Below are positions 49,304-57,386 of a stretch of DNA of 64,000 nt, piece after piece. Both the position numbers and the translations under genes were made by a program. The notes beneath the pieces were generated by a model that was not told the DNA's origin, did not search any database, and was given only the letters and a program-made list of their open reading frames with translations. Positions within the stretch are counted from its first letter, which is position 1. Every line of letters begins with the position of its first letter. Source of the stretch: Agreia sp. VKM Ac-1783 (GTDB taxonomy: Bacteria; Actinomycetota; Actinomycetes; Actinomycetales; Microbacteriaceae); assembly GCF_900177765.1 (NCBI RefSeq), contig NZ_FXWI01000003.1:558001-622000 (forward strand), in the 5' to 3' direction.

Positions 49304-50092
49304 CTAGACGCCCAGCGCGTTGAGCGAGTCGTCGACGATGGTGAGGCCCTCGAGACCGGGGAGGCCGCTGATTGCGGTGTCGATCTTGCGGGCGGCCTTG
49401 CGGCCTTCGACGCCACCCATGAGGTGACCCATCACGTGTTTGACCTCGTTCTTCTCCATGATGCTGGAGCCGACGGGAGCCCAGAAGTTGCTCAGGGCGA
49501 ACCGGGCGAACTTCTGCGCCTTCGTGCTCTTCGCCAGACGCTCGCGCGCCTGCGACGTGTAGAACGCCACGTGCCGTGCCTCTTGCTTCGCGATGCGCTT
49601 CAGCAGCTCGGCGAGCACGGGGTCTTCTTCGAGCGCGGCCATGCGGTTGTAGGCGGTGATCGCCGACCACTCGTTGGCAGCGCCCCATGCCATGTGCACG
49701 GCGACGAAGTCTGCGCCGACGACCTTGCCGATCACGGACTGCTTGATGGGGTCGAGCTTGTCGCGCCAGCCGAGTTTGAGGCGCTTGGCCTTGAGCTCGT
49801 CGAAGTCGACGCTGATTCCGTGGATTCCCAGAACGGTGGCCAAGGCCTCGCCGTGCCAGAACTCCTCGCGATTCCACATCGTCATGAACGCGCCCATCTC
49901 GGCCTCTTTGTGCGAGGGCGTGGTGAGCAGGTCGCGGGTGTAGCAGACGGTGTGATATTCCACGTCGGCCATATAGCGCAGGGTGCGCAAAGAGCCCTCG
50001 GGCAGGGGGTGCTCGCGGAAACGCTCGAGATCGAGGTCGTCCCAGTTCACGCTGACCGAAGTGGCCGTGTATTTGTCTACGTCGAATGCCAT
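49304..50092 (-). CDS. Ferritin-like diiron protein A (complete ligand set)
   Basis: 262 aa from ATG 50092. Four-helix diiron pattern: E45 (ADVEYH), E77-x2-H80 (EEFWHGEAL), E141 (NEWSAITAY) and E171-x2-H174 (KQEARHVAFY). This order, E...ExxH...E...ExxH, is that of acyl-ACP desaturase/ribonucleotide-reductase-like diiron oxidases. It lies next to an acyl reductase and close to an AGPS homologue, so it may desaturate an alkyl or acyl chain, possibly forming a vinyl ether. It has a paralogue encoded two genes upstream. Confidence 0.8.
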   Translation of the reverse strand: MAFDVDKYTATSVSVNWDDLDLERFREHPLPEGSLRTLRYMADVEYHTVCYTRDLLTTPSHKEAEMGAFMTMWNREEFWHGEALATVLGIHGISVDFDELKAKRLKLGWRDKLDPIKQSVIGKVVGADFVAVHMAWGAANEWSAITAYNRMAALEEDPVLAELLKRIAKQEARHVAFYTSQARERLAKSTKAQKFARFALSNFWAPVGSSIMEKNEVKHVMGHLMGGVEGRKAARKIDTAISGLPGLEGLTIVDDSLNALGV

Positions 50093-50099
50093 GGTGTGA

Positions 50100-50115
50100 G
50101 GAGAGTTTACTCTCC
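50100..50115. promoter_or_regulatory. Perfect 7-bp inverted repeat with -10 box
   Basis: GGAGAGTAAACTCTCC on the minus strand: 7-bp arms, 2-nt centre. It spans the reductase stop codon (TAA) and contains TAAACT, a -10 box for the ferritin-like gene A. Possible operator. Confidence 0.35.
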
Positions 50116-52428
50116 GGTTCCCTTCGCGAATTGCGGCAGGGCGGATGCTCCGCGGGTGCCGCGTTTCCAGTTGTGGATGCTCCATCTTCTTCGGAGCGCC
50201 TCGCGAGAAAGATTGGTGTCGGGGTTGATGGCGGTGGGGTTGCCGAGCAGCTGAAGCCACACGAGATCGGAGTGGCTGTCGCCGTAGCCGTACGACTTCG
50301 ACAGATCCATGCCATGCGTCTCTGCGTAGCGCCGCAACCAGGCAGCCCGCGCCTCGTCGACCAGAGGCGGCTGCGCGAGGTAGCCGGTCAGTATGCCGTC
50401 GCGCTCATGCATCGATCCGGCGACGACGTCATCGAAGAGCGCCGTCAGCGGCGAGGCCAGGATGCCGATGGATCCGGTGACGAGAACGGTGCGGTGACCG
50501 GCGGCGCGGTGTTCCTCTATGCGCGCGATCGCCGAAGGCATCGTGTGCCGTAGCAGCGTCTCGCGGTAGCCGCCAGAGACGACCTTCTCGAGCCGCTTCG
50601 CGGGCATGCCGCTGTAGCGACGCAGGAACGCGCGGATGAACTCGCCGCGGTCGCGGTGCTCCGCCTTCAGATAGCCGGGAAGCGACGTGAGAAGGCTCGC
50701 GACCTCGCTGGGCCATGCGGCCTTGCGGAAGCCCGCCGAGCGCACCCAGAGGTACTGCTCGACGATGTTGGAGTCGACGACCGTGCCCTCGAAGTCGAAG
50801 ACGGCGAGCACGTCGCTGCGCTGCGGAAGCGCCTTCGCGACCCGTTCCGACGCCGCCGGGCGCAGAGCGAACGCCCGGGTCAGCGCTGTGATCGACGGGA
50901 AGTGCACCTTCTGCAGGTAGTCCTCCCAGTCGATCGCGGTCACGTCGAATCCGATGTCGTCGCGTAACTCGGCGGGCAGTGCGTTGTGCAGCGCCCGGGT
51001 GTTGCGGTCGTCGAAGATGATCTCGGTCTGCACGTAGGCGCGGTAGAGCTCGACGAAGGTGCGCAGGTTCTCGAGGTCGTCTTTGCGCTTCAGGGCTTTC
51101 TTGACGTGCACGCGGGTGCGCTCGGTCGAGGGCAGGCGCTCGAGGGCCCTTTCGAGCCGTGCGTTCCAGATCTCCTGGTTGTGCAGCACTCGGTCGACCT
51201 TGCGGGTTCCCGGGAAGGTCCAGTACGGAACCTCGATGTGACCGTCGTTCTCGTGCGGCAGCGGAGTGGCCGTGAAGAACTCGTTCATGTTGGTGAACAT
51301 GCGGTGGATCGGCAGCGGATTCCGGGCGCCGGAACTCACGTGGTAGTACGCAGAGTCGACTTCTGCATCCGCCTCAGCCGGGTTCGCGGCGACAGCGAGG
51401 ATGACGTTGACCACGTAGTCGACGGGGATCACGTCGAGCACGGTGTCGGGCAGGGCCGGGAACTGCGTCAGGTTGCCGCGGGCGTAGGCGAGAACAAGGG
51501 GATCGGCCACCTTGAACCCGTCGATCCACCCGGGGTACGGGTGGCGCAGCGCGCTCTCGATGATGGCCGGGCGCACGACCGACAGGCGGTGACCGGTGTC
51601 ACGCCACAGCTCTTCCGCCGCCCGCTCGGCGAACGACTTCGTGAGCGTGTAGACGTCGGTCCAGCCGAGACTCTGGGCGCGGCTCCGCCCGTAGTCGACG
51701 AGGCGTTCGCGCACCCACTCGACGCGTCCGTTCTCGGCGGCGGTGGCCACAGCCTGCGGGCCTTCCTTGCCGTGGACGACGCGTGCGTCGTGCATGAACG
51801 TTCGCAGCGTCTCGGGCTGGCGCGATGCCATCTCGACCCGCACCCGGGCATCCCGAGCGGCAGTGAGCTCTGCACGCCAGTCGACCTCGTGCTTGAGTCG
51901 CCCCTCGGGAACGATGCCCTTGCGCAGCCCGCCGACGTAAGCCGTCGACACGTGCACCACGTGCGGGTCGCCGCCGGATTCGGCCAGGGCCGTGTAGAGA
52001 GCGATCGCACCGCCGAGGTTCGTCTCGAAGGCCTGATCGATGGGCGGGTCGAACGACACGGTGGATGCGCTGTGGATCACGACGTCGAGATCGGCCGGCA
52101 GCGGCGGAACGTTGGCGAGGTCGCCCGGAATCACGCGCAGCCGCTCGCGCACGGCGCGCTCGACCTCTTCTTCGCCGACGCGCTCGCGCCACGGGCCGAA
52201 CACGGGCTTGCGCAACAGGGTGCGCAGACGGTCGTCGGCGGTGGTGCTGCCCTTGGTGCGGATGAGCAGCGAGATCGTGGTCGCCGGATGCGATGAGAGC
52301 AGCCGTTCGACGATCGCCTGGCCGACGAAACCTGTTCCTCCCGTGATGAAGACGTGGGCGTCGCCGAGATCGGAGGACGCAGTCCATGACAGCGCCTCGC
52401 TCACGGTGCTGGCCACCGCGTCGCTCAC
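50107..52428 (-). CDS. Fatty acyl reductase fused to HAD-IB domain
   Basis: 773 aa from GTG 52428, whose GTGA overlaps the upstream stop. Residues ~20-420 form an extended SDR/thioester-reductase domain: FITGGTGFVGQAIVERLL (NADPH site) and DVYTLTKSFAE (YxxxK). The domain matches fatty acyl-CoA/ACP reductases that make fatty alcohols. Residues ~540-770 are a HAD-IB domain: FDFEGTVVDSN (second acid of DxDxT is Glu), VTGSIGI and YGYGDSHSDLVWL. The Glu may reduce phosphatase activity. Product: probably a fatty alcohol for ether-lipid synthesis by the neighbouring AGPS homologue. Confidence 0.82.
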   Translation of the reverse strand: MSDAVASTVSEALSWTASSDLGDAHVFITGGTGFVGQAIVERLLSSHPATTISLLIRTKGSTTADDRLRTLLRKPVFGPWRERVGEEEVERAVRERLRVIPGDLANVPPLPADLDVVIHSASTVSFDPPIDQAFETNLGGAIALYTALAESGGDPHVVHVSTAYVGGLRKGIVPEGRLKHEVDWRAELTAARDARVRVEMASRQPETLRTFMHDARVVHGKEGPQAVATAAENGRVEWVRERLVDYGRSRAQSLGWTDVYTLTKSFAERAAEELWRDTGHRLSVVRPAIIESALRHPYPGWIDGFKVADPLVLAYARGNLTQFPALPDTVLDVIPVDYVVNVILAVAANPAEADAEVDSAYYHVSSGARNPLPIHRMFTNMNEFFTATPLPHENDGHIEVPYWTFPGTRKVDRVLHNQEIWNARLERALERLPSTERTRVHVKKALKRKDDLENLRTFVELYRAYVQTEIIFDDRNTRALHNALPAELRDDIGFDVTAIDWEDYLQKVHFPSITALTRAFALRPAASERVAKALPQRSDVLAVFDFEGTVVDSNIVEQYLWVRSAGFRKAAWPSEVASLLTSLPGYLKAEHRDRGEFIRAFLRRYSGMPAKRLEKVVSGGYRETLLRHTMPSAIARIEEHRAAGHRTVLVTGSIGILASPLTALFDDVVAGSMHERDGILTGYLAQPPLVDEARAAWLRRYAETHGMDLSKSYGYGDSHSDLVWLQLLGNPTAINPDTNLSREALRRRWSIHNWKRGTRGASALPQFAKGTGE

Positions 52429-53243
52429 GATCGCAGCTTTCGGGCGACGGCGTCGCCGGTCTGCGGGGTCAGGCCGGGAAGTTCTGCCACTCTGTTTCCG
52501 ATCGTGGTTGCGCGCTGGAGTCCGTCGGCACCGCCGAAGACGATCTGTTCGAAGAAGGTTCTGTCTGCGTCTGAGCGATCGACCGCGCCGATCGGCCACG
52601 CTGCGTGGGAGAGCTGGCTCGTCGCCTGTTTGACGGTCTTGGCCGACTCGGCGAGGCGGCGATGAGCTTCTTCGGCGAAGAACGACTCGTGCCGGGCCTT
52701 GATGCCGCGGATGGTATCGAGTGTCGCGCTGAGCGTCGGGTGCCCGGCCACAGCATCCAGTCGTTCGTAGGCCGTGGCCATGACCCACTCGTCGATGAGG
52801 CCGGCCGTCATATGCACACCGGTGAGCGGCACGCCCTGGCCCATGGCCAGGATGGCGCGTCGGATCGGCCCGCGGCGCTCGGCCGACTCGGAGCGGTCGG
52901 AGCGCGGCGTGCCCTCGTCGCCCACCTGCGCGCCGATGCTGCCGTTGGCTCCGAGGATCTGGTCGATCGCGTCGGCGATCCAGAACTTCTCGAAGGCCCA
53001 TGTCACGAGAAACGCGGTGACTCGAGCGTCTTTGTGGGTGGCCGTCACGAGGAGGTTGCGCAGTTGCTCCATGGTCGCGCTCTCGAGTCGACCGAGGTAG
53101 CGCAGCAGATGAACCGCCTCGGGCGAGAGCTGAGAGGCCTCGTAGCCCTCGAGCTGGAGCTCGGGGCGCAGTGTGCCGCGGGCAGTGCTGGCGAACGCCC
53201 GCACGTCGAACCGCGCACTCGAAGCTGCGTCTGTGGATGTCAT
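52425..53243 (-). CDS. Ferritin-like protein B (degenerate ligand set)
   Basis: 272 aa from ATG 53243. It is a paralogue of ferritin-like protein A: LTGVHMTAGLIDEWVMATAYERLDAVAGHPTLSATLDTIRGIKARHESFF aligns with the corresponding segment of A. Aligned ligands: E54 kept, E77 to K86, H80 to I89, E141 to E152 kept, E171 to K182, H174 to H185 kept. With three of six ligands lost, it should not hold a normal diiron site and may serve as a structural partner of A. Its stop overlaps the acyl reductase GTG. Confidence 0.72.
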   Translation of the reverse strand: MTSTDAASSARFDVRAFASTARGTLRPELQLEGYEASQLSPEAVHLLRYLGRLESATMEQLRNLLVTATHKDARVTAFLVTWAFEKFWIADAIDQILGANGSIGAQVGDEGTPRSDRSESAERRGPIRRAILAMGQGVPLTGVHMTAGLIDEWVMATAYERLDAVAGHPTLSATLDTIRGIKARHESFFAEEAHRRLAESAKTVKQATSQLSHAAWPIGAVDRSDADRTFFEQIVFGGADGLQRATTIGNRVAELPGLTPQTGDAVARKLRS

Positions 53244-53302
53244 GAAAGCCCTGCCGACTGGTCGAAAACCTGCGTGCGTAAACGACGCCGTGAAGAGCAG
53301 AC

Positions 53303-53308
53303 TAACCT
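53303..53308 (+). promoter_or_regulatory. -10 box of leaderless ether-lipid operon transcript
   Basis: TAACCT, exactly 6 nt before ATG 53315, at the divergent promoter region between the two ether-lipid operons. It also forms part of a right half-site matching CTWACCTWA (53302-53310) of the DtxR consensus. Confidence 0.6.
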
Positions 53309-53314
53309 AACCCC

Positions 53315-54091
53315 ATGGCTGTAGCTCTCGTTACGGGAGGAACGTCTGGCATCGGTGCTGCGTTCTCCCGGTCCCTCGCTGCGCAGGGATATGACCTCGT
53401 TCTCGTCGCTCGAAGCGTTCCGCGACTGGAGGAGATGGCCGACGAGATCCGCGCCCTCGGCCGTTCGGTCGAGATCTTCCCGGCCGACCTCGCCGACCGC
53501 GACGATGTCGCCCGCGTCGCCGAACGCCTCGAAGACGCCTCTCGGCCGATCGACATGCTCGTGAACAACGCCGGATTCGGGGTGCACACGTCGCTCATCG
53601 ACGCCGATGTCTCGGCCCACGACCGTGCCTTCGAGGTCATGTGCCGAGCGGTGCTTGTGCTCTCCGGCGCCGCCGCGCGCGGGATGCTGCCGCGCGGCTC
53701 GGGAAAGATCGTGAACGTCTCGAGTACAGCGGGTTTCGTGACGATGGGCGCGTATTCCGCGTTGAAGGCGTGGGTCACCTCGTTCACCGAGGGACTCGCC
53801 GTCGAACTGCGCGGCACAGGAATCGGCGTGACGGCGCTCTGCCCGGGCTGGGTGCACACCGAGTTTCACGAGCGGGCCGGAATCAAGGCGTCGAGCATTC
53901 CAAACTTCTTGTGGCTCGACGCCGAACAACTTGTCACGGCATGCTTGCGCGACGTTGACCGAGGCAGGGTAATCTCCATACCGACTGTTCGGTACCGAAC
54001 CCTCATCTGGTTGGCTCGCCACGCACCGAGGAGTGCGATTCGCGCAGTCTCCGGGTCGATTTCCTCGAGTCGAAAGAAGCCGGTCACTTAG
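53315..54091 (+). CDS. SDR oxidoreductase of the ether-lipid operon
   Basis: 258 aa. ALVTGGTSGIGAAFSRSLAAQGYDLVLVARS (NADP-favoured: ARS), DMLVNNAGFG, and VSSTAGFVTMGAYSALKAW with catalytic Ser, Tyr (YSALK) and Lys. The C-terminal LIWLARHAPRSAIRAVSG may associate with the membrane. In this setting it is the likely alkyl- (or acyl-) dihydroxyacetone phosphate reductase. Its stop TAG abuts the next ATG. Confidence 0.85.
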   Translation: MAVALVTGGTSGIGAAFSRSLAAQGYDLVLVARSVPRLEEMADEIRALGRSVEIFPADLADRDDVARVAERLEDASRPIDMLVNNAGFGVHTSLIDADVSAHDRAFEVMCRAVLVLSGAAARGMLPRGSGKIVNVSSTAGFVTMGAYSALKAWVTSFTEGLAVELRGTGIGVTALCPGWVHTEFHERAGIKASSIPNFLWLDAEQLVTACLRDVDRGRVISIPTVRYRTLIWLARHAPRSAIRAVSGSISSSRKKPVT

Positions 54092-54841
54092 ATGGCTGAA
54101 CGAGAACCCGCGTCACCAAGACGCCCCGGCGATGTCGCCGGCGAGCGTGATCGATTCAACTCGCCTACGCACGCGGCAGCCCGTTTCGTGGTGCAGCGCG
54201 GGTTGCTGAAGCCCCTCATCTGGTCGCTCACCCGAGTCACCGTGATCGGCCGCGAGAAGCTCAAAGACGTAGCCGGAGGGTTCGTGGTCGTCGCGAATCA
54301 CTCCAGCCATCTGGATGCGCCGCTCATCGTCGGCTCGCTCCCACGGCGCCTGGCGCGTTACCTCGCCACCGGCGCCGCGGCCGACTACTTCTTCGCTGTG
54401 TGGTGGAGGCGCGGCCTCACAGCCCTCTTCTTCAACGCCTTCCCCGTGAAGCGCATGGAATCGAAGGCGAAGTCGATCAGTGCCCGGTCGCTCCTGTCTC
54501 GAGGCATTCCGATCCTGATCTTCCCCGAGGGAACACGATCGAAAGACGGCGAGGTCGGAGCGTTCAAGCCCGGAGCCGCGGCGCTCGCCGCATCGTGCGA
54601 CGTACCGACCATTCCGATGGCTCTGATCGGCGCCCACGTGGCTCATCCGCGGGGAGCGAACTGGCCCCGACGGGGCCGCTACCCGGTCGGCGTCGTCTTC
54701 GGTGAGCCTCTTCGACCGATCGCGGGGGAGACCCCCGGTCACTTCGCCGAGCGCACGAAGCAAGAGATCCTGCGCCTGCGCGAGCTTCATTCCGAGACTA
54801 TCCTTGGCCAGTCCCCACGATCTAGAGGAGCCCTTCAATGA
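54092..54841 (+). CDS. Glycerolipid acyltransferase (PlsC-like LPLAT)
   Basis: 249 aa. VVVANHSSHLDAPLIV holds the HX4D catalytic motif; FPEGTRSKDGEVGAFKPGAAALA the FPEGTRS substrate motif; IPMALIGA the third block. It transfers an acyl group from CoA or ACP to a glycerol-phosphate backbone. In this operon it could acylate dihydroxyacetone phosphate (GNPAT role) or the sn-2 position of alkyl-glycerol phosphate. Immediately follows the SDR and overlaps the AGPS gene by 4 bp. Confidence 0.9.
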   Translation: MAEREPASPRRPGDVAGERDRFNSPTHAAARFVVQRGLLKPLIWSLTRVTVIGREKLKDVAGGFVVVANHSSHLDAPLIVGSLPRRLARYLATGAAADYFFAVWWRRGLTALFFNAFPVKRMESKAKSISARSLLSRGIPILIFPEGTRSKDGEVGAFKPGAAALAASCDVPTIPMALIGAHVAHPRGANWPRRGRYPVGVVFGEPLRPIAGETPGHFAERTKQEILRLRELHSETILGQSPRSRGALQ

Positions 54842-56505
54842 GCGATGTCAAGCACATGAAATGGTGGGGCTGGGGCGTCGACGGCGTCGCTTTCCACCAC
54901 GAGAACAAGCCCGGTTTCGCGCCGTTCGTGAAGAAGAACCTCGGGCTCGACCTCACGAAGACCAAGGGCGAGCCGCCGACATTCGACGACATCGATGTCC
55001 CCTCCAGTCGCGCGGCGGAGTCGTTTGTTCTGCTGCTCGCCGGAATCGTCGGCGACGAGCACGTCGAGACCGACGACATGTCCCGCGTCGTGCACACATT
55101 CGGAAAGAGCATCCGCGACCTCATCCGCGTTCGCACCAGCGCGTTCCCCCGTGCCGTCGACGTCGTCGTCTACCCGGCCAACGAGGCCGAGGTCCGGCTG
55201 ATCGTCGATGCGGTCGTCGCGGCCGACGCCGTGCTCATCCCCTTCGGAGGCGGCAGCAACATCGCCGGCAGCCTCGAGCCCCTCGCCGCCGAGGAGCGCA
55301 CCGTCGTGTCGCTCGACCTCGGCCGACTCAACCGCGTGATCGAGGTCGACGCCGACTCGAGTCTCGCGCGCATCCAGGGCGGCGCCCAGGGGCCAGACCT
55401 CGAAGCCGAACTCAACGCCGCCGGCTGGACCCTCGGCCACTTCCCCGACAGCTTCACCCACTCCACCGTGGGCGGCTGGGTGGCGACGCGCTCCTCCGGC
55501 ATGCAGAGCGACAAGTTCGGCGACATCGCAGACATCGCCAAGGGCCTGCGGGTCGTGCGCCCCGGCGGAGTGCTCGTGCTGCGCCCGCTGCCCAGCACGT
55601 CGACCGGCCCGAGCGTGCGCGAGATGATTCTCGGCAGCGAGGGGCGTCTCGGGGTCATCACCGAGGTCACCGTGCAGATCCACCGCATCCCGGCCAAGCG
55701 CGAGATCCTCGCCTATCTCTACCCCACCTGGGACGCGGGACTCGCGGCCATGCGGGAGATCTCCGAGAGCGACGCCACCCCCTCGATCACCCGCGTCTCC
55801 GACGGCAACGAGACGCTGTTCTCGTTCGCCACGTCGAAGAAGAGCAAGGGTTTCTCGGCTCTCGCCACGAAAGGCCTCGGCGTGTTCCTGAAGGCCAAGG
55901 GCTGGGACACCGACAAGATGTGCCTGTCGTTCGTCGGAAACGAGGGCGGCGAAGAGCTGGTCGCGACGAACCAGAAGATCATCGCGGGCATCGTCAAGAA
56001 GCACGGTGGCATCACGGTCGGCAAGGGCCCGGGCGTGCTCTACGACCAGAAGAAGTTCGACACCCCGTACATCCGCGACTGGTTCCTCGACTGGGGCGGA
56101 TCGGCCGACGTGTCCGAGACCGCCGCCCCCTGGGCCAAGCTGCCCGAGCTCTACCGCAACGTGATCGCCAGCGCCAACCGCGCGTTCGACGAGATCGGCG
56201 TCAAGGGCTGGATCATGGCGCACCTCTCGCACTCGTACACGTCGGGCGCCTGCCTCTACTTCACCTTCGCCTACCTCGACACGGGCGATGCGATCCCCAA
56301 CTACGACGTGGTGAAGGGTGCGATCCAGCAGGCCTTCATCGACGCCGGCGGAACGCTGTCGCACCACCACGGCGTCGGTCTCGAGCACGCTCCCTGGATG
56401 GAGCAGGACATCTCGACCGAGGGCGTCAAGATTATGCGCGGACTCTTCGGAGCTGTCGACCCCGGTCGCCACTTCAACCCGGGCAAGGTTCTGCTCGACG
56501 AATGA
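54838..56505 (+). CDS. Alkyldihydroxyacetonephosphate synthase (AGPS) homologue, FAD
   Basis: 555 aa. Starts MSDVKHMKWWGWGVDG, like the KWNGWG of AGPS. FAD-binding: LIPFGGGSNIAGS and QGGAQGPDLEAELNAAG, GHFPDSFTHSTVGGWVATRSSGMQSDKFGDI is the AGPS signature, SEGRLGVITEVTVQIHRIP follows, and SHHHGVGLEHAPWM carries the active-site His cluster of the vanillyl-alcohol-oxidase superfamily AGPS. C-terminus DPGRHFNPGKVL. It should replace the acyl group of acyl-DHAP by a fatty alcohol, forming the ether bond. ATGA overlap with the acyltransferase. Confidence 0.88.
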   Translation: MSDVKHMKWWGWGVDGVAFHHENKPGFAPFVKKNLGLDLTKTKGEPPTFDDIDVPSSRAAESFVLLLAGIVGDEHVETDDMSRVVHTFGKSIRDLIRVRTSAFPRAVDVVVYPANEAEVRLIVDAVVAADAVLIPFGGGSNIAGSLEPLAAEERTVVSLDLGRLNRVIEVDADSSLARIQGGAQGPDLEAELNAAGWTLGHFPDSFTHSTVGGWVATRSSGMQSDKFGDIADIAKGLRVVRPGGVLVLRPLPSTSTGPSVREMILGSEGRLGVITEVTVQIHRIPAKREILAYLYPTWDAGLAAMREISESDATPSITRVSDGNETLFSFATSKKSKGFSALATKGLGVFLKAKGWDTDKMCLSFVGNEGGEELVATNQKIIAGIVKKHGGITVGKGPGVLYDQKKFDTPYIRDWFLDWGGSADVSETAAPWAKLPELYRNVIASANRAFDEIGVKGWIMAHLSHSYTSGACLYFTFAYLDTGDAIPNYDVVKGAIQQAFIDAGGTLSHHHGVGLEHAPWMEQDISTEGVKIMRGLFGAVDPGRHFNPGKVLLDE

Positions 56506-57386
56506 CACGTGCCCGTCTCGGCGGCCCCGTCGGAGCGGCGGGGCTCGTCGTCGCAGGGCTGGCGTGCCAGGAGGTCGGAGCGGCATTCGCCGTGCTGCTG
56601 TTCCCCAGCGTCGGCGCGCTGGGCATGGTCGCGCTGCGGCTCACCTTCTCCGCTCTCATCCTCCTCGCGATAGCGCGGCCGTCGCTGCGGGGCCGTAGCC
56701 GCGGCGACTGGATGACGGTGGTGCTGTTCGGCCTGGCCCTCGCCGTGATGAACGGCTTGTTCTACGAGGCCCTGGCGCGCATCCCGCTCGGCGCAGCCGT
56801 GACCATCGAGGTTCTCGGGCCGCTCGTGCTCTCGGTGGCCACGAGCCGACGCGCATCCAGTTGGCTCTGGGCGGTTCTCGCCTTCGTCGGCGTCTTTCTG
56901 TTGGGCCAGGGCAGCTTCGGCGAGCTCGATCCCGTTGGGGTGCTCTTCGCCGCGGGAGCCGGAGCGAGCTGGGCCGGTTACATCCTGCTGTCGTCGCGCA
57001 CGGGCAGTCGCTTCGCCCGGCTCGACGGCCTCGCCCTCGCGATGGCCATCGGCGCGGTGCTCACCCTTCCGCTCGGGGTCGCGGCCGCTGGCCCGGTGAT
57101 CGTGCGGCCCGACATCCTGCTTCTCGGGGCAGCCGTCGCGATTCTCTCGTCGACCATTCCGTATGCCCTGGAGCTATTCGCGCTCCGACGCATCCCCTCG
57201 TCGACCTTCGCGATTCTGATGAGTCTGGCGCCCGCGATCGCAGCGCTCGCCGGGGTCGTGCTTCTGGCTCAGCACATCTCGCTCGTCGGAGTGCTCGCCA
57301 TCGCGCTCGTCGTGACCGCGAGCATCGGAGCGGTGCGCAGCGCGGGCCCGGGGGCTACTCCCGTCGCTCGTGCCGAACCGGTTTGA
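56502..57386 (+). CDS. EamA (DMT) family transporter
   Basis: 294 aa with ten hydrophobic helices in two EamA repeats (first ending near residue 135, second LFAAGAGASWAGYILLSSRTGSRF onward). It resembles RhtA/threonine exporters. The ATG overlaps the AGPS stop (ATGA), so it belongs to the operon, yet its link to lipids is unclear; it may export a metabolite or be a passenger. The last 32 bp overlap the convergent DUF4166 gene. Confidence 0.88.
   Translation: MTRARLGGPVGAAGLVVAGLACQEVGAAFAVLLFPSVGALGMVALRLTFSALILLAIARPSLRGRSRGDWMTVVLFGLALAVMNGLFYEALARIPLGAAVTIEVLGPLVLSVATSRRASSWLWAVLAFVGVFLLGQGSFGELDPVGVLFAAGAGASWAGYILLSSRTGSRFARLDGLALAMAIGAVLTLPLGVAAAGPVIVRPDILLLGAAVAILSSTIPYALELFALRRIPSSTFAILMSLAPAIAALAGVVLLAQHISLVGVLAIALVVTASIGAVRSAGPGATPVARAEPV

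Follow-up and report, generated by a model that had tools for sequence, protein, structure and literature searches.

A conserved six-gene cluster of Agreia as a candidate aerobic ether-lipid and plasmalogen locus with a ferritin-like protein pair

In a window of 64,000 nucleotides from Agreia sp. VKM Ac-1783 (contig NZ_FXWI01000003.1, positions 558,001 to 622,000 of the forward strand), window positions 49304-56505 carry six genes for an alkyldihydroxyacetonephosphate synthase (AGPS), a fatty acyl reductase (FAR) fused to a HAD domain (FAR-HAD), an SDR reductase, a PlsC-family acyltransferase and two ferritin-like proteins, FerA and FerB. On balance, we consider it probable that the locus encodes an aerobic ether-lipid/plasmalogen pathway in which FerA/FerB stand in place of CarF/PEDS1. 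From the gene content, synthesis of ether lipids is very probable and plasmalogen is a likely end product; FerA, the best candidate for the vinyl-ether desaturase, has somewhat better than even prospects of being that enzyme. This reading draws directly on the family identities of the proteins, the conservation of the gene set and of the metal ligands, co-occurrence across genomes and searches in which CarF was not found.

A check of open reading frames and junctions confirmed all six genes, and the two divergent operons with 71 bp between their starts that an earlier note on this DNA had described are indeed there. FerB, FAR-HAD and FerA follow one another on the minus strand and SDR, PlsC and AGPS on the plus strand. 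FerB and FAR-HAD overlap by 4 bp (GTGA), FAR-HAD and FerA are separated by 14 bp, SDR and PlsC adjoin with a gap of 0, and PlsC and AGPS overlap by 4 bp. Judging from the sequence, FerA most likely starts at 50092; an alternative longer open reading frame to 50260 would overlap FAR-HAD. The source genome is 3.76 Mb in size; Agreia pratensis VKM Ac-2510 has a FerA identical (100%) to the one in the window.

By its sequence, the FAD protein is a true AGPS. Compared with the PDB, it scored 389 bits against 2uuu (AGPS) and 283 bits against 4bby (peroxisomal AGPS), whereas the best glycolate oxidase (9qgz) reached 78 bits. R413, Y474 and H509-H511 of the window AGPS align with R515, Y578 and H615-H617 of 4bby, which we take to be the catalytic residues of the peroxisomal enzyme, and are invariant across 21 aligned homologues. 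These scores and residues rule out a glycolate/lactate oxidase and bear out the earlier note, which had named the protein an AGPS: it groups with AGPS and not with the oxidases. The window AGPS is a candidate for exchanging acyl for fatty alcohol on acyl-dihydroxyacetone phosphate (acyl-DHAP). AGPS in bacteria is not new, because homologues are listed in actinobacterial metagenome genomes (PMC11868695) and a bacterial reductase has been linked with AGPS (PMC11948995).

The fatty acyl reductase expected from the earlier note turned out to be a fusion protein. FAR-HAD matched the Pfam domains NAD_binding_4 (PF07993) with 155 bits (cut-off 20.1) and HAD (PF12710) with 112.7 bits, and scored 34.6 bits against the Sterile C-terminal domain PF03015 (cut-off 35.4); its best solved relative by profile is the fatty acyl-CoA reductase 7eoz (220.6 bits). 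TGxTGFVG, Y260/K264 and D545xExT are invariant in 18 sequences, and HAD motif I thus reads D545-x-E547-G-T in all of them. Phosphatases usually carry Asp at the motif I position held here by Glu (E547), so that phosphatase activity of FAR-HAD is uncertain. For SDR, the nearest NCBIfam model is mycolate reductase (NF040690, 169.6 bits, below the cut-off of 380), and the motifs NHSSHLD and FPEGTRS can be read in PlsC.

A FerA scan of genome contigs gave 182 relatives, and the loci of the best 80 of the 182 were fetched. FerA looks like a soluble di-iron enzyme of the desaturase fold. Its predicted ligands, E45, E77xxH80, E141 and E171xxH174, follow the E / ExxH / E / ExxH arrangement of di-iron carboxylate enzymes. 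All six are identical in every one of the 80 fetched FerA and in all 14 FerA from other families (94/94). FerA scored 21.9 bits against FA_desaturase_2 in Pfam (PF03405), just below the cut-off of 22.7, and matched 1za0 in a profile search at E 0.008. With its AlphaFold model (pLDDT 84), Foldseek returned soluble acyl-ACP (acyl carrier protein) desaturases first (7t63, E 1.8e-4, prob 1.00, TM 0.63) and then R2-like oxidases.

FerB had no Pfam domain match and is homologous to FerA (hhalign prob 100, E 2.4e-50). Every one of the 78 FerB in the fetched loci has K/R for E77, I/L/V/M for H80 and K/R/T for E171; the losses are patchier in 11 partner-type (FerB) stretches from other families. The FerB model (pLDDT 90) matched R2-like oxidases and desaturases in Foldseek, none at E <=0.001. 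The earlier note had counted two ferritin-like proteins; FerB, with three of the six predicted metal ligands lost, is probably a catalytically dead, metal-less partner and no second enzyme, and the two proteins may form a complex. In family f15, a second FerA-like protein (L146, G309:C23:8573-9325) keeps five of the six ligands (H174 is Q), between FerA and FerB.

All six genes, in the same order and on the same strands, were present in 67 of the 80 fetched loci, a few of them clipped by contig ends, and this arrangement is more than chance. Holders of the full set include Agreia, Subtercola, Frigoribacterium, Frondihabitans, Glaciihabitans, Herbiconiux, Salinibacterium and Labedella, and also two Microbacterium strains. 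Among the remaining 13 loci, 11 have FerB and FerA only, one (L020) has FerA alone in an assembly that carries the full set elsewhere (L019), and one (L074) has FerA and a partial FAR at a contig end.

Some loci carry additional elements. A palindrome, CGCTACGG-N-CGTAGCG, lies in the SDR-FerB spacer near the SDR start in 26 of the 67 loci (e.g. L033, L037 and L054) and is absent from the Agreia loci; by eye, it appears to overlap a likely leaderless SDR promoter and looks like the operator of a regulator. Between FAR-HAD and FerA, Subtercola and Labedella have two further genes, for a LarA-like protein (PF09861) and for a second PlsC. Genome G252, which is without AGPS, has FAR-HAD followed by an alcohol-dehydrogenase-like gene, a LarA-like gene homologous to the Subtercola/Labedella one, and PlsC (stretches concerned: L079:7596-9856, L075:7600-9851, L036:7691-9957 and L121:12161-14694).

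FerA and AGPS were then counted in a family sample of 249 Microbacteriaceae genomes (strong FerA, >440 bits; strong AGPS, >600 bits) and an order sample of 347 genomes (>370 and >700 bits, respectively). The family sample had strong FerA in 75 genomes, strong AGPS in 69 (74 at E 1e-50) and both in 67; the order sample had 49 (54 at E 1e-5), 67 (95 at E 1e-60) and 42, respectively; these counts ignore phylogeny, and their very small Fisher values are not to be taken literally. Two observations weigh more. In genera g96, g133 and g143, the FerA locus is unlinked from the FAR/SDR/PlsC/AGPS cluster in the genomes looked at, yet both are present, and in g96 all 18 sampled FerA genomes fall within its 22 AGPS genomes. 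The other observation concerns genus g91, in which G469 is the only sampled genome with FerA and the only one with strong AGPS. Outside Microbacteriaceae, 39 of the 41 FerA genomes of the order sample also have strong AGPS.

The exceptions in the family sample are few. Two AGPS genomes are without strong FerA, G101 (85% complete) and G113 (77% complete), the latter with a FerB-type protein only, the 76th FerA-family match of the sample. Eight FerA genomes are without strong AGPS. In G107, FerB lies at base 1374 of its contig, so AGPS could lie past the contig end; in G025, G079, G102, G142, G212 and G057 (locus L029), FerB directly adjoins FerA, and G142 has a weak partial AGPS-like match (234 bits); the eighth is G227.

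Acid methanolysis converts vinyl-ether chains to dimethylacetals (DMAs). The earlier note had mentioned DMAs in some Microbacteriaceae, and published profiles agree for four Subtercola species, Agreia, and Frigoribacterium faeni and F. adelgis. The Subtercola species have 6.9-17.0% i-16:0 DMA, 3.2-11.0% a-15:0 DMA and 1.9-4.0% a-17:0 DMA (PMC5945732), and the listed values add up to 20.7-28.6% of peak area; if each plasmalogen has one DMA-forming and one ester chain, plasmalogens would make up about half of the diradyl lipids. Anteiso-15:0 aldehyde/DMA was reported in F. adelgis and F. faeni and not in two other species (PMC12823222).

The marker may also go under another name. In Kineococcus rubinsiae, the MIDI peak 'C14:0 2OH' was identified as anteiso-15:0 DMA by gas chromatography-mass spectrometry, and DMAs could be named only with the ANAEROBE6 library (PMC7472656). 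On MIDI, 2OH-C14:0 accounts for 10.4, 9.9, 15.6 and 3.9% in the type strains of S. boreus, S. frigoramans, S. vilae and S. lobariae and is absent from Subtercola endophyticus (PMC9287328); the former four are the DMA-positive species of PMC5945732. Some actinobacterial 'C14:0 2-OH' peaks may be anteiso-15:0 DMA, which is a naming problem for chemotaxonomy.

Neither known bacterial route to vinyl ethers was found in the genomes searched for it. The CarF/PEDS1 model Lipid_desat (PF10520) had no match in the 249 Microbacteriaceae genomes, including the source genome; the control of that run was itself silent, Bacillus subtilis gave matches below the cut-off only, and G606 was positive in a repeat. 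The same model matched strongly in 7 of 198 genomes of the phylum (E 1e-48 to 1e-58). These matches (L114-L120, in G606, G708, G772, G761, G655, G740 and G707) belong to Actinomycetota families f32 and f61 and extend the range beyond that given in a review, according to which Cystobacterineae and Leptospira are the only known holders of true CarF (PMC9131029). Among the seven CarF genomes, G707 has an AGPS match of 391 bits and the other six have none >100 bits, so that CarF and FerA could not be shown to exclude each other in genomes with AGPS. DUF2229 (PF09989), which the PlsA-type protein presumably contains, was absent from the 12 genomes tested, including the source genome (control positive in 4 of 14), and the PlsA route was rejected for these 12. 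PlsA/PlsR have been found in anaerobes and some facultative groups (PMC9702350).

In the pathway we propose, FAR would reduce an acyl thioester, mostly a branched one, to the fatty alcohol, and a PlsC-type acyltransferase, either the PlsC of the locus or a housekeeping enzyme, would provide 1-acyl-DHAP. AGPS would put the fatty alcohol in place of the acyl group, yielding 1-alkyl-DHAP, which SDR would convert to 1-alkyl-glycerol-3-phosphate. Acylated at sn-2, this product would enter the phosphatidylglycerol/cardiolipin lipids, and FerA, held together with metal-less FerB, would use O2 and electrons to introduce the C1'-C2' double bond of the alkyl chain, yielding the vinyl ether (plasmalogen). 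The substrates and order of these steps, and the production of such lipids by the strain, are what we infer from the genes. FerA with ligand-poor FerB would then be, by a narrow balance of probability, a third and independent solution to vinyl-ether formation: a soluble, O2-dependent di-iron ether-lipid desaturase that is widespread in aerobic Actinomycetales and unrelated to CarF/PEDS1 and PlsA/PlsR. The aerobic ether-lipid/plasmalogen interpretation put forward in the earlier note is thus supported by the identity of AGPS, the DMAs of relatives, the searches in which CarF and PlsA were not found, and a FerA that is desaturase-like and co-occurs with AGPS.

A number of observations weigh against this pathway. 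Ether-lipid genes are not needed for FerA to persist: genomes with FerA and with neither strong AGPS nor FAR-HAD span three genera of Microbacteriaceae, and FAR-HAD was absent at E 1e-20 from nine genomes with the FerB-FerA pair (G025, G057, G079, G102, G142, G212, G227, G477 and G545). In the FerA tree, 16 FerB-FerA pairs without adjoining AGPS fall into a single derived clade (support 0.88) that lies within the operon-type FerA; the genome-wide lack of strong AGPS was checked for those of the 16 present in our genome samples. The FerA of the 11 fetched pair loci keep all six ligands, so FerA/FerB must have some task in pair-only genomes. G252 and G286 have FerA and FAR-HAD and no AGPS. No electron donor was recognised in the locus, and the best PDB fold match of FerA is modest at the TM value given above. 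The pair loci without other ether-lipid genes nearby (L013, L016, L018, L022, L023 and L025-L030) come from Agromyces, Leifsonia, Humibacter and Glaciibacter; no neighbour is common to all, and one nearby gene recurs in 8 of 12 loci compared.

The lipid data include adverse points as well. DMAs of Agreia are at a low level, <=4%, and the table of major DMAs prints ND (PMC5945732). Frondihabitans is said to be without DMAs and to have C14:0 2-OH as a major acid (PMC5945732), despite which two Frondihabitans loci (L039 and L051) carry the gene set; its 'C14:0 2-OH' may be a misnamed DMA. F. endophyticum was reported without DMA (PMC12823222), and another strain of this species carries the set (L064). 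Both C14:0 2-OH and a DMA are listed for F. adelgis (PMC12823222) and S. lobariae (PMC5945732), so a 2-OH peak is not necessarily a DMA.

These points lend themselves to a different explanation, that the locus makes only saturated alkyl-ether (plasmanyl) lipids, FerA/FerB acts elsewhere, for example in the desaturation or oxidation of an acyl chain (such as anteiso-15:1), and the DMAs of relatives come from another enzyme. It would account for the FerA that persist without strong AGPS and FAR-HAD, for the resemblance of the FerA fold to acyl-ACP desaturases, and for the lack of strong FerA in 25 of the order sample's 67 genomes with strong AGPS. The converse, strong FerA without strong AGPS, is rarer (7/49); a modifying step downstream would be expected to leave such a picture, with AGPS commonly lacking FerA and FerA more rarely lacking AGPS. 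K. rubinsiae makes a DMA with strong AGPS and with neither CarF nor a close FerA. It does carry a distant FerA homologue (L141:1285-2244; profile E 4.3e-9, prob 96) with all six ligands. Five of the 11 g99 genomes searched have this homologue and K. radiotolerans, at E 1, does not; K. rubinsiae is thereby softened as a clean counterexample. The fatty-acid row of K. radiotolerans shows no C14:0 2-OH (PMC7472656); the Kineococcus pattern fits a FerA-family desaturase, resting on two named species, which prove little. Since FerA shares the cluster and strand of FAR in 67 of 80 loci and, outside Microbacteriaceae, rarely occurs without AGPS, and since neither CarF nor the PlsA-type domain was found in the genomes searched to explain the DMAs, we regard the restriction to plasmanyl lipids as unlikely, at about one chance in several.

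The other explanations fare worse. DMAs might arise from fatty aldehydes, free or bound, that FAR produces, in organisms with alkyl ethers and aldehydes but no plasmalogens, since any fatty aldehyde gives a DMA on acid methanolysis; at about 21-29% of peak area, the Subtercola DMAs would lie far above the level expected of free aldehydes, and an aldehyde origin is improbable. A reductase and a ferritin-like di-iron protein sharing one operon also bring to mind a hydrocarbon (aldehyde-deformylating) system like cyanobacterial AAR-ADO, with AGPS incidental. FerA, however, matched no aldehyde-deformylating family at E 0.001 in either Pfam or NCBIfam, the domain matched by FAR is the male-sterility reductase one (best solved relative, 7eoz), and AGPS, SDR and PlsC belong to the same conserved set, which makes such a system very improbable. 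Least credible is a lactate/glycolate-oxidase-type FAD protein in a locus unrelated to ether lipids: the protein has an FAD-oxidase C domain and glcD models match below their cut-offs, but the AGPS scores and the conserved HHH, Tyr and Arg described above speak for AGPS.

The features of the locus are listed in Table 1. A promoter/terminator scan of 53100-53450 found none. Downstream, an RhtA/EamA gene (56502-57386) overlaps AGPS by 4 bp and has a homologue in 5 of the 80 fetched loci, all from Agreia. The RhtA and GFO/MocA genes were considered as pathway parts and rejected; RhtA and close GFO homologues (89-96%) are confined to the same five loci.

Table 1. Features of the candidate ether-lipid/plasmalogen locus (window coordinates)
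Feature	Position	Strand	Remark
FerA, ferritin-like/acyl-ACP-desaturase fold, 262 aa	49304..50092	-	candidate plasmanyl (vinyl-ether) desaturase
FAR-HAD, NAD_binding_4 + Sterile-like + HAD, 773 aa, GTG start overlapping FerB stop	50107..52428	-	
FerB, FerA paralogue, 272 aa, probable inactive partner subunit	52425..53243	-	
Divergent promoter region, 71 bp	53244..53314	.	
SDR, 258 aa, candidate acyl/alkyl-DHAP reductase	53315..54091	+	PF00106, 158.9 bits
PlsC-family acyltransferase, 249 aa, candidate DHAP or sn-2 acyltransferase	54092..54841	+	PF01553, 80 bits
AGPS, alkyldihydroxyacetonephosphate synthase, 555 aa	54838..56505	+	FAD_binding_4 + FAD-oxidase_C

DMAs have been known in aerobic actinobacteria since 2000, with no gene attached to them in the passages cited (PMC5945732, PMC12823222, PMC7472656, PMC9287328). 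In searches of open-access papers, none of the titles and abstract openings of the matches listed describes the operon, and no paper searched joins plasmalogen, ferritin-like and desaturase. The locus provides a set of genes open to testing, with a candidate desaturase from a protein family other than those of the known routes. If our reading is true, plasmalogens are commoner in aerobes than the records show, in part because the fatty-acid library standard for aerobes can give their marker as C14:0 2-OH; many actinobacterial 'C14:0 2-OH' entries would be unrecognised plasmalogens, and a soluble vinyl-ether desaturase could lend itself to study more readily than PEDS1, a membrane enzyme.

Compared with known systems, the locus resembles the animal pathway (FAR1, GNPAT, AGPS, acyl/alkyl-DHAP reductase and PEDS1): it has AGPS with the catalytic residues kept, FAR, an SDR reductase and a PlsC-superfamily acyltransferase. 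It differs in that its genes are clustered in two operons, FAR is fused to HAD, and di-iron FerA with ligand-poor FerB is present, whereas no PEDS1/CarF homologue was found in the 249 genomes. Myxococcus xanthus, likewise aerobic and with branched chains, has an AGPS (MXAN_1676) in an operon (MXAN_1676-1674) with FAR-like and reductase-like genes; its ether-lipid proteins also include ElbD and ElbE, of which ElbD is FAR-ACS-ACP-AT, and MXAN_1675 is FAR-AT (PMC9131029), whereas the locus has FAR-HAD and a separate PlsC. The multienzyme architecture of ElbD is absent, FAR being fused to HAD only, and M. xanthus has CarF, unlike the Microbacteriaceae genomes searched. Clostridium PlsA/PlsR also lead to vinyl-ether lipids in a bacterium, but by reducing the sn-1 ester of a diacyl lipid, with no DHAP or fatty alcohol (PMC9702350). 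With soluble acyl-ACP desaturases (castor stearoyl-ACP desaturase and M. tuberculosis DesA2), FerA shares the fold and the di-iron ligand pattern; its sequence match to them is at the edge of noise, and FerA, in contrast, is paired with a ligand-poor paralogue and linked to AGPS. Yeast Rnr2/Rnr4 is a di-iron pair with one metal-less subunit; as with FerA and FerB, a protein with the full set of ligands stands beside a paralogue in which some are lost, though the reaction is another one and the FerA-FerB complex is a putative one. The locus works like the animal pathway and belongs to neither the CarF/PEDS1 nor the PlsA/PlsR route.

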